NCBI GenBank assembly: GCA_022425945.1
Contig: JAKMEK010000005.1
Coordinates: 1-46,407, forward strand
Source of the DNA: Flavobacteriaceae bacterium
Lineage (GTDB): Bacteria; Bacteroidota; Bacteroidia; Flavobacteriales; Flavobacteriaceae
Length of the DNA stretch: 46,407 nt
Direction: 5' to 3'
Below the pieces are notes generated by a model. The model ran no database searches, had not been told where the DNA came from, and worked only from the letters and a program-made list of their open reading frames with translations. Made by a program: the position numbers and the translations under genes. Position 1 is the first letter of the stretch. Each line of letters begins with the position of its first letter. Below, piece by piece: positions 41,632-46,251 of this stretch.

Positions 41632-44082
41632 TTATATTTTTTTAGCGAATTTCACCTTTTCATCGGTGATAGCGATGGCCAAAACCTCATGCATTTCTTT
41701 CACGAAATGAAATTGCAAGCCTTTGAGGTAATCCGCATTGATTTCTTCAATGTCCTTTCGATTGCTCTCACATAGAATGATTTCTTTTATTTTGGAACGC
41801 TTGGCCGCAAGGATTTTCTCTTTTATCCCACCTACCGGAAGCACCTTCCCACGAAGAGTAATTTCTCCCGTCATGGACAAATGCTTTTTTACACGCTTTT
41901 GGGTGAGCAATGAAACCAATGAGGTCAACATGGTAATCCCAGCACTAGGACCATCTTTTGGAGTGGCACCCTCTGGCACGTGAATGTGAATATTGTAGTC
42001 ATCAAAAGGAAAGTCGGATAAGCCCAACTTAGCCGCATTGGCCTTGATGTATTGCATGGCAATGGTCGATGATTCTTTCATTATTTTTCCGAGGTTCCCC
42101 GTAATGGATAATTGTCCTTTCCCGGGAGACAAAGCTGATTCGATAAAAAGAATATCTCCCCCAACTGAAGTCCACGCCAATCCAATAACCACTCCTGCCG
42201 TCTCATTGTTTTCATACAAATCGCGACTTACTTTTATGGGCCCTAGAATATCCTTGAGCTCGTTTCGCTTGGGCGACTTGATGTAAGCCTCTTCCATGGC
42301 AATTGATTTTGCTACATAACGCACCGACTTGGCCACTTGTTTCTCCAAACCACGCACCCCAGACTCTCGGGTATACCCCTCGACAATCGCTTCCAAAACA
42401 CTTTTAGACAACACCAAGTCTTTATCTTGTAAACCGTGCTCTTTCAACTGTTTGGGCAATAGGTGATTCTTGGCAATCATGGCTTTTTCTTCGATGGTAT
42501 ACCCACTAACATTGATGATTTCCATACGATCGCGCAATGCCGGCTGTATGCTTCCTAAACTATTTGCAGTTGCGACAAACATGACCTTGGACAAGTCATA
42601 CCCATACTCCAAAAAGTTATCGTAAAACGAACCGTTTTGTTCTGGATCCAACACCTCTAGCAAAGCAGAAGAAGGATCCCCTTGAGCGCTACTGGTGAGT
42701 TTATCGATCTCATCTAAAACAAAAACAGGGTTTGAAGTACCCGCTTTTTTCAGGCTTTGGATGATACGTCCGGGCAAAGCACCGATGTAGGTCTTACGGT
42801 GACCGCGAATCTCTGCTTCATCGCGCATACCCCCAAGGGAAATACGGACATATTCTCTACCCAAGGCCTCTGCGATAGACTTCCCTAAAGAGGTCTTTCC
42901 GACCCCAGGAGGGCCATACAAACAAAGAATGGGGGATTTCATATCATTGCGCAGTTTAAGCACAGCTAGGTATTCGATGATACGTTTCTTGACCTCTTCC
43001 AATCCATAATGATCGCGATCCAAGATTTTTTGCGCGCGCTTTAGGTCAAAAAGGTCCTCAGAAAATTCTCCCCACGGTAAATCCAGAAAGAGATCCAAAT
43101 AATTGCGTTGCACCGAATACTCCGCCACCTGCGGATTCATACGCTGTAACTTCATCAATTCTTTCCCAAAATGCGTTCCAACCTCTTCGGTCCATTTCTT
43201 GTCTTTAGCCCGCACTCGCATTTCTTCTACTTCTTCCTCATAGGAAACCCCACCCAATTCTTCTTGAATGGTTTTCATTTGCTGGTGCAGGTAGTACTCG
43301 CGTTGTTGTTGGTCCAGATCTGTACGAACCCTGGACTGGATGTCGTTTTTCAGTTCCAGCTTCTGATATTCTAAGTTCATGTATTTTAAACACAACAATG
43401 CACGATCTTTGATGTTGGCCGTAGACAAAATCTCCTGCTTCTCTTGTACGGTCAAACTCATGTTGGACGAAACAAAATTGATCAAGAATGAGTGACTTTG
43501 AATGTTTTTAATTGCAAAAGAAGCCTCTGTAGGAATGTTCTGACTCTCCTTGATAATCTTCAAGGCCAGGTCTTTTATGGACTCCACAATGGCGGTGAAC
43601 TCTGAGGTCTCTTGAACAGTCCTCTCTTCAATTACACTCTTAATCTTGACTTTTATGTAGGGGGTCTCCGTGATGAGCTGCTGAATTTCGAAGCGCTTTT
43701 TCCCTTGAATAATGATGGTTGTATTCCCATCGGGCATAGTCAGTACACGTAAAATCTGTGCAACCGTTCCCAAAGCATACACATCCACTATACTAGGATC
43801 TTCCACCTCTTGGTCTTTTTGCGCCACTACTCCAATGACCTTATCGCCTTTATTCGCTTCCTTTATGAGCTGAATGGACTTATCTCGCCCAACAGTTATG
43901 GGAATTACCACTCCAGGAAATAAAACTGTATTTCGCAGTGGCAAAATTGGCACTGCCTCGGGGAGATCTTCCCGTTCAAGGGCCTCTTCGTCTTCGGTGG
44001 TCAATAAGGGGATTAAATCGGCTTCGGCATCAATGTCTTGTAATGACAAATTGTCTAGGGAACTAAAAATTGGCTTGGACAT
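41632..44082 (-). CDS. lon: ATP-dependent protease La (Lon)
   Basis: An 816 aa AAA+ serine protease that degrades misfolded and regulatory proteins. In order it has a LON substrate-binding domain (PILPLRNTVLFPGVVIP), a long coiled-coil middle, Walker A YGPPGVGKT, Walker B PVFVLDEIDKL, and a peptidase domain with Ser713 in KDGPSAG and Lys756 in GGIKEK as the dyad. Complete and of normal length, with an N-terminal acidic extension of about 40 residues. Its leader carries a small AATGGC/GCCATT hairpin (44102-44121). It heads the lon-NRDE-cmk run. Confidence 0.97.
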   Translation of the reverse strand: MSKPIFSSLDNLSLQDIDAEADLIPLLTTEDEEALEREDLPEAVPILPLRNTVLFPGVVIPITVGRDKSIQLIKEANKGDKVIGVVAQKDQEVEDPSIVDVYALGTVAQILRVLTMPDGNTTIIIQGKKRFEIQQLITETPYIKVKIKSVIEERTVQETSEFTAIVESIKDLALKIIKESQNIPTEASFAIKNIQSHSFLINFVSSNMSLTVQEKQEILSTANIKDRALLCLKYMNLEYQKLELKNDIQSRVRTDLDQQQREYYLHQQMKTIQEELGGVSYEEEVEEMRVRAKDKKWTEEVGTHFGKELMKLQRMNPQVAEYSVQRNYLDLFLDLPWGEFSEDLFDLKRAQKILDRDHYGLEEVKKRIIEYLAVLKLRNDMKSPILCLYGPPGVGKTSLGKSIAEALGREYVRISLGGMRDEAEIRGHRKTYIGALPGRIIQSLKKAGTSNPVFVLDEIDKLTSSAQGDPSSALLEVLDPEQNGSFYDNFLEYGYDLSKVMFVATANSLGSIQPALRDRMEIINVSGYTIEEKAMIAKNHLLPKQLKEHGLQDKDLVLSKSVLEAIVEGYTRESGVRGLEKQVAKSVRYVAKSIAMEEAYIKSPKRNELKDILGPIKVSRDLYENNETAGVVIGLAWTSVGGDILFIESALSPGKGQLSITGNLGKIMKESSTIAMQYIKANAAKLGLSDFPFDDYNIHIHVPEGATPKDGPSAGITMLTSLVSLLTQKRVKKHLSMTGEITLRGKVLPVGGIKEKILAAKRSKIKEIILCESNRKDIEEINADYLKGLQFHFVKEMHEVLAIAITDEKVKFAKKI

Positions 44083-44121: not shown

Positions 44122-44237
44122 CCTTCTGGTTTATCTGATTCTACACATAAAGATTCAATCATTATGCCAAAATAATGTTCCCTAGAATGTAACAATTCTC
44201 AATTTTCACATCTTATAGAATAGAAGACCATAGCTCC

Positions 44238-44927
44238 ATGATCAAAACAATGGAAATTGACCAACTCATCCAAGGTTGCCTAAAGAAAGATGAGTCAGCG
44301 CAAATGGAAGTATACAACCGCTATCATTTGTCCATGTATCACAGTGCTTTACGCATTGTAAAAAATCGAGTAGATGCAGAAGATGTGATGCATGAAAGTT
44401 TTTTAACGGCTTTTGAAAAATTAGCACAGTACAAGGGAGGAAATAAATTTGGGGGCTGGTTAAAACAAATCACCTTACGAAAAGCACTCCATTGCTGTGA
44501 AAAACGAAACAAACTAAAAACCTCGCCCCTTGAAGATGGGCGTTTTTACGAACCAGAAATCAATGCATCTACAGAAAGTACCGTAGAAAAATTCAACCTA
44601 AATAGCGCTGGTTCGGATAAAATTGACTTAAACATTGAAGCAACATCAGTAACAGCAAGATTGGCCGGTAGTGGGAAAATTATTCTGAAAGGGAATGCCA
44701 CGAACATAAATGCCAAACATGCGGGTTCTGGAAGCATCCGCCTTCAAGGCCATCAAGCAAAAAATGGCAAAGTATCCCTTGCGGGTTCTGGAAACGTATA
44801 TGTTAGCTCCAGTCAAAATTTAGAGGCCAGTGTTGAAGGCTCAGGAAGTGTGCGTTACTTTGGGGAGCCTAAAAACAAATTGCATAGCAAAGTAGACGGA
44901 TCTGGATCGGTGCGTCTAGCTAAATAA
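44238..44927 (+). CDS. Chimeric ORF: ECF sigma factor region 2 fused to GIN-domain (DUF2807) repeats
   Basis: A 229-codon ORF of two unrelated halves. Residues 1 to about 105 match region 2 of a flavobacterial ECF-type sigma-70 factor (DESAQMEVYNRYH, ALRIVKNRVDAEDVMHESF, FGGWLKQITLRKAL). Residues from about 112 to the end match the C-terminal part of a GIN or DUF2807 protein, with repeats at 124 (AGS), 143, 162 and 182 (AGSG), 200 (EGSG) and 220 (DGSG). Sigma region 4, the anti-sigma gene and the GIN signal peptide are absent. A deletion that joined two genes in frame is the simplest explanation. The product might still bind core RNA polymerase through region 2 but cannot be an ordinary sigma factor. 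The start at 44238 or 44250 is uncertain. The last 8 bases overlap the convergent MFS gene. Confidence 0.85.
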   Translation: MIKTMEIDQLIQGCLKKDESAQMEVYNRYHLSMYHSALRIVKNRVDAEDVMHESFLTAFEKLAQYKGGNKFGGWLKQITLRKALHCCEKRNKLKTSPLEDGRFYEPEINASTESTVEKFNLNSAGSDKIDLNIEATSVTARLAGSGKIILKGNATNINAKHAGSGSIRLQGHQAKNGKVSLAGSGNVYVSSSQNLEASVEGSGSVRYFGEPKNKLHSKVDGSGSVRLAK

Positions 44928-46251
44928 TAGCTGCCTTTCGATTAACCCGCAGCAGCATTATCGCCCCAAAGACAAAGAAAACACCAAAGAATACAATGGA
45001 GAAGCGCATGCTGCCTGTAATTTGATCAATGGCACCAAAAAGGAACATTCCAATGATGATTCCGACTTTTTCAGCCACATCATAGAAACTAAAATAGGAG
45101 GTGGTATCCTCGGTCTCTGGCAAAAACTTTGAATAGGCAGCACGAGAGGAAGCCTGAATCGCCCCCATGACCAAACCTACAAAACCGGCAATATAATAGA
45201 ATTGCGCGGGGGTTTCAATGGTAAAGGCATAGGCACAAATAATGGCCCAAATTATATTAATGACGATCAGGGTTGGGATGTTTCCATAACGAACAGAAGC
45301 CCGTGCAGAAAGAATTGAGCCAAAAATAGCCACAATCTGAATGAGTAAGATGCTCACGATCAGTCCCATGGTTTTTTCACTGTCCGACCCCCAAGCAATT
45401 TCCTCTTCCCCAAAATAGGCTGCAACCAACATCACTGTTTGTACCGCCAAGGAATAAATGAAAAAGGCTGATAAATAACGTTTTAACGGAAAATTACCTT
45501 CCATTTGCTTGTAGACGGTGCGTAATTCTCGGAAGCCGTTCCACAAGATGTCGCGTGTGATTTTTTCGTCATTTTTGTTTCCCTTGGGCAAAAAATACAA
45601 AGAGACCTGACTAAACAAAAACCACCACACCCCTACAGAAACAAAAGAATAGCGCATGGCCAGCATGGCTGCCTCACCGGCCGTACCCTCAATTCCGTAC
45701 AATTCCGGCTTCATGACCATGGATAAATTGAAAAGCAACAATAATACACTCCCAATGTACCCCATGGAATAACCGCGAGCGCTGGCGCGATCTTGCTGTT
45801 CTGGGTAAGCTACATCGGGTAAATACGAATTATAAAACACCAAACTGGCCCATAAACCAATCATGGCCAAGAAATAAAAGAACAAACCAATATAGATTGA
45901 ATCCAGTTCAAACCAATACAATCCAACACAGGAGAATGACCCCAAGTAAACGAAAAATTGCATGAAGTTCTTTTTGTTTCCCACAAAGTCGGCAATGCCC
46001 GAAAGCAACGGAGAAATAAATGCCACCACCAAAAATGCACAGCCTGTCACAAAACTGATCATGGCCGTATTTTTAACGTCATAACCGAAAAAATTGATTT
46101 GGTTATTCTCAGCAAAAAGCGCAGCATAATAGATTGGAAAAATCGCTGAAGAAATCACCAAGGAATACACCGAGTTGGCCCAGTCGTAGAAAGCCCAAGC
46201 ATTGATCAATTTTTTACTTCCTTTGGCTAGTGCATTTTTTGTTTCAAGCAT
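44920..46251 (-). CDS. MFS transporter, Atg22/UMF1-like family
   Basis: A 443 aa membrane protein with about 12 helices. The N-terminal NAWAFYDWANSVYSLVISSAIFPIYYAALF is the signature of the UMF1/Atg22-like subgroup. GIADFVGNKKNFMQFF carries the MFS loop 2-3 motif. The fungal relative exports vacuolar amino acids; the bacterial substrate is unknown. It is monocistronic as far as the window shows, and its end overlaps the chimeric sigma/GIN ORF by 8 bases. Confidence 0.88.
   Translation of the reverse strand: MLETKNALAKGSKKLINAWAFYDWANSVYSLVISSAIFPIYYAALFAENNQINFFGYDVKNTAMISFVTGCAFLVVAFISPLLSGIADFVGNKKNFMQFFVYLGSFSCVGLYWFELDSIYIGLFFYFLAMIGLWASLVFYNSYLPDVAYPEQQDRASARGYSMGYIGSVLLLLFNLSMVMKPELYGIEGTAGEAAMLAMRYSFVSVGVWWFLFSQVSLYFLPKGNKNDEKITRDILWNGFRELRTVYKQMEGNFPLKRYLSAFFIYSLAVQTVMLVAAYFGEEEIAWGSDSEKTMGLIVSILLIQIVAIFGSILSARASVRYGNIPTLIVINIIWAIICAYAFTIETPAQFYYIAGFVGLVMGAIQASSRAAYSKFLPETEDTTSYFSFYDVAEKVGIIIGMFLFGAIDQITGSMRFSIVFFGVFFVFGAIMLLRVNRKAAII

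Follow-up and report, generated by a model that had tools for sequence, protein, structure and literature searches.

Is an open reading frame that begins as one protein and ends as another a new gene, or the remainder left by a deletion? The question is raised by a 46,407-nt stretch from a Flavobacteriaceae bacterium (assembly GCA_022425945.1, contig JAKMEK010000005.1, positions 1 to 46,407, forward strand; hereafter the window), in which a forward-strand ORF of 229 codons (44238–44927, ATG start, TAA stop) fuses, in a single frame, an N-terminal segment of an ECF sigma factor with a C-terminal segment of a GIN protein. Our preferred reading, to which we assign a probability of about 0.87, is that this ORF is a young in-frame deletion relic of a four-gene operon.

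The sigma/GIN chimera is real. Its residues 26–87 match Sigma70_r2 in Pfam (PF04542; 2.6e-9, 37.2 bits against a cut-off of 24) over profile positions 2–65 of 71, and residues 109–211 match DUF2807 (4.8e-22, 79 bits against a cut-off of 24.2), limited to the C-terminal profile positions 79–181 of 181. Scanned separately, as the original prediction had proposed, residues 1–105 return Sigma70_r2 and residues 112–229 return DUF2807, along with matches below the cut-offs. Sigma region 4 has no Pfam match in the 229-aa product. In NCBIfam, the best 25 of 63 matching families are all sigma models (top score 57.2 bits against a cut-off of 204), none of these 25 being at its cut-off, and residues 112–229 are without any match. 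The expected loss of the GIN export signal along with region 4 also held: the chimera begins with the sigma stump in its place, and the GIN protein of a congener (G005) has at its N-terminus a hydrophobic stretch of signal type, as judged by eye and not by a signal-peptide predictor. As for the six AGSG/EGSG/DGSG-type repeats ascribed to the tail, five exact xGSG motifs can be read from the translation and the sixth is only a degenerate AGSD. On the reverse strand, ORFs across the region reach at most 63 codons.

Feature coordinates are collected in Table 1. Both anticipated flanks, lon and an MFS transporter gene, were found, the 3′ end of the latter overlapping the GIN 3′ end by 8 bp. The Pfam match to DUF2807 begins at 44562, already inside the junction zone, which contains no N.

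Table 1. Features of the lon-to-MFS interval in the window
Feature	Coordinates	Strand	Basis
lon protease gene, divergent left border	41632..44082	-	ORF; matches in 18 of 19 genus genomes
Putative sigma54-like lon promoter, TGGCAT-N5-TTGA	44155..44169	-	Seen by eye in congeners
Putative ECF-type promoter of the ancestral operon, retained, TGTAACA-N16-TCTTAT	44188..44216	+	Exact match at the same position in 10 genus genomes
5′ stump, N-terminal part of the ECF sigma gene (region 2 present, region 4 absent)	44238..44536	+	Pfam; nucleotide alignment to the G003 sigma gene stops at about 44536
Deletion junction zone	44537..44591	+	End of the sigma alignment and start of the GIN tblastn alignments
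3′ stump, C-terminal half of DUF2807/GIN with its stop codon	44592..44927	+	Pfam DUF2807 positions 79–181; tblastn to GIN of G005, G015, G014 and G018
MFS transporter gene, convergent right border	44920..46251	-	ORF; matches in 18 of 19 genus genomes

The parents of the two halves are found side by side in related genomes. Homologues were searched in 60 relatives and then in all 19 genomes of the genus (G000 being the genome of the window), and the lon-to-MFS stretches were compared by tblastn with whole parts. In the complete locus lon is divergent from the sigma gene, followed by an anti-sigma-like gene, a DUF4097 gene and the GIN gene, which is convergent with MFS. The original prediction had described a locus of sigma, anti-sigma-like and GIN genes between lon and MFS; those genes are indeed there, but the count of three does not stand, DUF4097 lying between the anti-sigma-like gene and GIN. 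Pfam finds regions 2 and 4 in the G003 sigma orthologue (region 4, PF08281, at 1.9e-14), DUF4097 in G015 (6.9e-6, over its cut-off) and a full DUF2807 in G005. The anti-sigma-like protein of G003 gave nothing above a Pfam cut-off, so that its name rests on gene position. Outside the genus, 17 of 18 loci (among L010–L030) carry sigma, anti-sigma and DUF4097 in this order within the stretch covered, and in L014 the GIN gene directly follows the anti-sigma gene. Since lon adjoins sigma in 11 of these 18 loci, the lon link is common, not general. A sigma match at 1e-22 or better is present in 189 of 397 family genomes. In the available part of PMC11237479, DUF4097, DUF2807 and DUF2154 are unified as a ‘Toastrack’ beta-helix domain, linked to membrane-stress systems, in places with an operonic sigma factor, and proposed to be an intracellular docking surface. 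Within the terms searched and the portions of articles available, we found no description of a sigma/anti-sigma/DUF4097/DUF2807 locus beside lon.

Within the genus (genomes of 1.4–2.2 Mb, many incomplete) this operon is partly or wholly lost in 12 of the 18 informative genomes, G000 included, the remaining genome (G002) having no usable locus. Both flanks lie on a single contig in 16 genomes. Fuller loci, about 2.8–3.1 kb between lon and MFS, are kept in six: G018 (3149 bp), G017 (3103 bp, about 130 too long as the MFS match stops 44 residues early), G014 (3008 bp) and G007 (2778 bp), with G015 and G003 split or cut by contig ends, their genes present, G003 only to the middle of DUF4097. ‘Intact’ is approximate for G017 and G007, because the GIN frame of the former is interrupted, close to Ns in the end of MFS, and the GIN gene of the latter itself contains Ns. 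Counting these six as intact, the lon+MFS nucleotide tree requires at least 7 independent losses. The reduced distances grade down from 1443 bp (G005) through 891 (G009), 855 (G010), 840 (G000), 734 (G004), 626 (G008), 600 (G013), 503 (G006), 487 (G012), 446 (G001) and 355 (G016) to 90 bp (G011). In G011 the lon-side motif is kept and no operon part is recognised, and its gap looks like the end state of operon removal. A different outcome is seen in G005 (L034): sigma, anti-sigma and half of DUF4097 are gone, and the whole GIN gene is kept with its N-terminal hydrophobic stretch, now sitting downstream of a promoter-like element.

The comparison of the lon-to-MFS interval that had been suggested thus sets 840 bp in the window against 2778–3149 bp in fuller congeners, and a single deletion of about 2 kb explains the product. 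What is missing is sigma region 4, the anti-sigma-like gene, the DUF4097 gene and the N-terminal half of GIN; the proposed origin by one internal deletion is borne out by the comparison with the four-gene locus, as a multigene deletion with both breakpoints inside genes and the frame kept. In the scenario that we propose, the operon between divergent lon and convergent MFS would have lost about 2 kb of its middle in the G000 lineage, and breakpoints inside its first and last genes would have happened to keep the frame, yielding sigma region 2 plus half of GIN. The remaining outer ends would have stayed beside lon with its promoter region and beside MFS, both kept in nearly all genomes. Elsewhere in the G000 assembly no DUF4097 gene was found at E 10 and no anti-sigma gene up to E 0.01 (the best, 0.2, being at chance level), absences limited by an assembly 85.7% complete; within the genus, 6 of 19 genomes were positive for DUF4097 and 6 of 19 for anti-sigma. 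Sigma region 4 occurs in G000 only in other sigma genes, at no more than 33–34%. At the junctions of other genomes, parent overlaps of about 10 bp (G013), about 6 bp (G009 and G001) and 3–4 bp (G004) suggest slippage between short repeats; they were judged by eye against sister-species parents, without a chance control and with the G000 junction left out.

Is the frame kept by chance or by selection? Five genomes have a junction within both sigma and GIN coding sequence, in frame in G000 and G001 and out of frame in G013, G006 and G004 (the sigma pieces left in G001 and G006 are short, at about 25 and 14 residues, and were identified by eye with help from the G016 match and not by their own tblastn). 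This share, two of five, is as expected by chance with one junction in three in frame (P ~0.54 for at least two, calculated by hand). G009 has an out-of-frame join of its anti-sigma gene to GIN, and the G012 junction falls upstream of where sigma begins. The in-frame case of G001 (L041, 183–449, reverse strand) is a second sigma::GIN fusion on another branch of the genus, with about 25 sigma residues and GIN residues 184–246; its GIN part has an omega of 0.24 (omega 1 rejected, p 0.0008) or of 0.4 (interval 0.12–1.0), the two fits having used different genomes.

Without constraint, a frame as long as this ORF would escape stop-creating substitutions with P 0.34 at 0.03 substitutions/site, 0.17 at 0.05, 0.027 at 0.1 and 4e-10 at 0.6, and with P 0.12 at 0.03 substitutions/site if 5% frameshifting indels are assumed. 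On a long branch the odds of survival are low, so that either the deletion happened recently or the protein is being maintained, and the controls described below favor a recent deletion. Relatives carrying the same compact fusion, which would count against a recent deletion, were looked for and none was found among the other 18 genus genomes and the samples of 397 family and 395 order genomes. Among the best matches in the family sample, G000 and G013 are followed by sigma genes whose frames have the usual length (widest query range 5–133 among the matches listed), and in the order sample, which overlaps that of the family, only G000 reached 1e-26. As at most 7 candidates were scored per genome in both searches, these may have overlooked a weak fusion.

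Leaving branch lengths free made the codon models unusable, synonymous changes being saturated and omega traded off with branch length. For this reason lon+MFS supplied fixed neutral branch lengths, with a single scale left to vary, and these give G000 a terminal branch of 0.60 substitutions/site. Along this branch omega is estimated at 0.066 for the sigma stump (background 0.072, p 0.80) and at 0.085 for the GIN stump (background 0.052, p 0.20), and a value of 1 is rejected for each half. The out-of-frame relatives behave alike: the G013 sigma stump has 0.06 against 0.076, and the GIN stumps that are out of frame with their sigma pieces in G004 and G006 have 0.12 and 0.09 against 0.09 (0.10 and 0.03 in a second fit). 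The GIN omegas are rough because the scale sat at its bound (2.72) in the fits with G000. All fits used chosen subsets, 6 to 10 of 10 sigma rows and 5 to 9 of 15 GIN rows; no fit included GIN from G007, G009 or G017, and the alignment leaves out the sigma fragments of G001, G006 and G016, which are short.

Since out-of-frame stumps are as constrained as in-frame ones, most of each branch seems to predate its deletion. For G000, if the ORF is unconstrained, an upper bound of about 5–6% of the branch would be neutral, or about 0.03–0.04 substitutions/site on the lon+MFS scale (last product by hand). A hint of relaxation comes from the intact sigma gene of G003, with an omega of 0.034, below its background of 0.077 (p 0.009): the G000 and G013 stumps, one in frame and the other not, are both at about twice this value. 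Open GIN tails with low omega also occur in G004, G006 and G012, and we considered that remnant tails may be kept for a function, yet in-frame and out-of-frame tails behave alike. With G013 out of frame and equally constrained, neither the open frame nor the low dN/dS demonstrates function; both are compatible with a recent deletion. The idea that the open frame is a sign of maintenance was not supported, given this relative, the two of five junctions in frame and a fusion found in no other genome searched. Of the options left by the original prediction, the relic is favored by recurrent losses, by a frame that is random among relatives and by the out-of-frame control. That the deletion is recent and that the product is functionless and little expressed is what we infer from these patterns.

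Several observations count against a relic and have to be weighed with its rivals. An open frame with omega 1 rejected for both halves is also what a functional chimera would show, and the ATG and a promoter-like element are retained. Such a protein might bind core RNA polymerase in the cytoplasm through region 2, nearly complete in the Pfam match, and dock through a beta-solenoid GIN tail, acting as a decoy or dominant-negative sigma. A docking role would agree with the surface proposed for Toastrack in the available part of PMC11237479, and chimeras from multigene deletions can be expressed, as stated in the available part of PMC7671302. In a single-sequence AlphaFold2 model (mean pLDDT 63.6), residues 131–229 are strand-rich, with 70–84 per block, residues 111–130 are at 59–62, and the sigma half is at 38–64 with one block at 77; the model hints weakly that the tail can still fold, and gives the half that would have to bind polymerase low confidence. 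Together with the absence of the fusion from every other genome searched, an in-frame rate equal to chance, an out-of-frame control that looks equally ‘constrained’ and a retained promoter that appears ECF-dependent, this leaves a functional protein highly improbable. The false joining of two stretches in a draft assembly (98 contigs, of the completeness given above) is very unlikely as well: the junction has no N, no copy of the missing middle genes turned up in the rest of the assembly, and 11 other genus genomes are shortened too, including the 1–7-contig assemblies G005, G008, G009, G012 and G013.

The deletion could also be older than G000 itself, a single fusion inherited by G000 and G013 with further loss in the latter, which would be compatible with a relic. 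The G013 deletion does extend past that of G000 on both sides: its junction joins sigma to about residue 96 with GIN from about residue 187 (G005 protein numbering) in different frames, and at the aligned start position its sigma stump lacks an ATG. A sister pairing of the two is not rejected by the amino-acid tree (AU p 0.33), a point against a young relic, is marginal at codon positions 1+2 (p 0.067) and is rejected by all nucleotide positions (p 0.001). In the lon+MFS tree G000 branches outside its nearest relatives, G003+G013 (bootstrap 100 for all positions, 96 for positions 1+2 and 72 for amino acids), and in G003 the sigma and anti-sigma genes and the first part of DUF4097 are still present; with the breakpoints of G013 also differing, the G000 and G013 deletions are, from these alignments and trees, most likely separate events. 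As a neutral frame would hardly last that long, a shared deletion would need selection in G000 and not in G013, and we regard it as unlikely.

Region 4 of a sigma factor recognises the −35 element, and its loss bears on expression of the relic. TGTAACA-N15–17-TCTTAT precedes the sigma gene in 10 genus genomes, and others have close variants of it. Outside the genus, inspection by eye shows a looser form in nearly all of 14 loci, of which the strict expression matched one. The element in the window is unlike TAnnTTTG, the promoter of the primary sigma factor of F. psychrophilum according to the available part of PMC9723704, and is probably an ECF promoter read by this very sigma factor. Reading it would require region 4, so the chimera could not do so and would be little expressed. 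Transcription by another ECF sigma is possible, as other sigma genes with region 4 are present in G000.

How does the chimera compare with known systems? Residues 26–87 are region 2 as in ECF sigma factors with Sigma70_r2 and Sigma70_r4_2; region 4, which the G003 orthologue has, is deleted in the chimera, and no anti-sigma gene was found beside it. Compared with DUF2807/head GIN proteins (‘Toastrack’ in the part of PMC11237479 available), it matches profile positions 79–181 with its residues 109–211, lacks the N-terminal half and the export signal, and carries its tail fused to a sigma stump. The closest likeness is to the M. tuberculosis in-frame chimeras from multigene deletions, some of them expressed and one with a shown function according to the accessible text of PMC7671302: there too breakpoints in two distal genes give one in-frame ORF, although the likeness here is in origin. 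The remnant, lying between two kept genes, may also recall ‘border-induced selection’, in which neutral sequence persists between conserved borders, a model that the available part of PMC9748784 applies to human introns.

The chimera is probably of no consequence as a protein, but it offers a useful natural experiment. A single genus shows the operon between lon and MFS in many states of loss, with intervals ranging from about 3 kb down to 90 bp, and an open frame with low dN/dS over a deletion fusion is insufficient for a new-gene claim, since an out-of-frame relative passes the same test. The pattern suggests that a genus with small genomes keeps dispensing with an ECF/Toastrack module that many relatives keep and that, extrapolating from the available part of PMC11237479, perhaps serves envelope stress. 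Were the functional reading true, it would describe a natural decoy sigma, freed from region 4 and anti-sigma and made by deletion in one step; as the genus deletes the operon repeatedly, the locus would keep generating such chimeras, two of which (G000 and G001) are in frame.

A reading of the promoter pattern as a regulon of this sigma was set aside: the 19 genomes contain 39 copies of it and 12 of the reversed pattern, and a match before an ABC operon persists with or without the sigma gene. This match, seen in G000, G013 and G018 (L091, G000:C42:3385-3414; L084; L097), is TGTAACA-N17-TCTTAT with CGTC at the place of the −10 element and precedes an apparent ABC transporter ATPase/permease operon, named by eye; it is perhaps the promoter of another ECF sigma factor. 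A near-identical 28-bp match, TGTAACAAAAGRGTTGCxxxAATCTTAT, recurs in G000, G003, G005, G010, G011, G013, G015 and G017 (L074, L077, L082, L083, L088, L092 and G000:C79:11414-11441) and may be a conserved coding or promoter site.

Upstream of lon, a motif of the TTGGCATAA type, similar to a sigma54 −24/−12 promoter, persists even in G011, which has lost everything else in the interval. We take the form in the window, TGGCAT-N5-TTGA, to resemble the sigma54 consensus. In F. psychrophilum, lon is listed under a sigma54 motif in the available part of PMC9723704.
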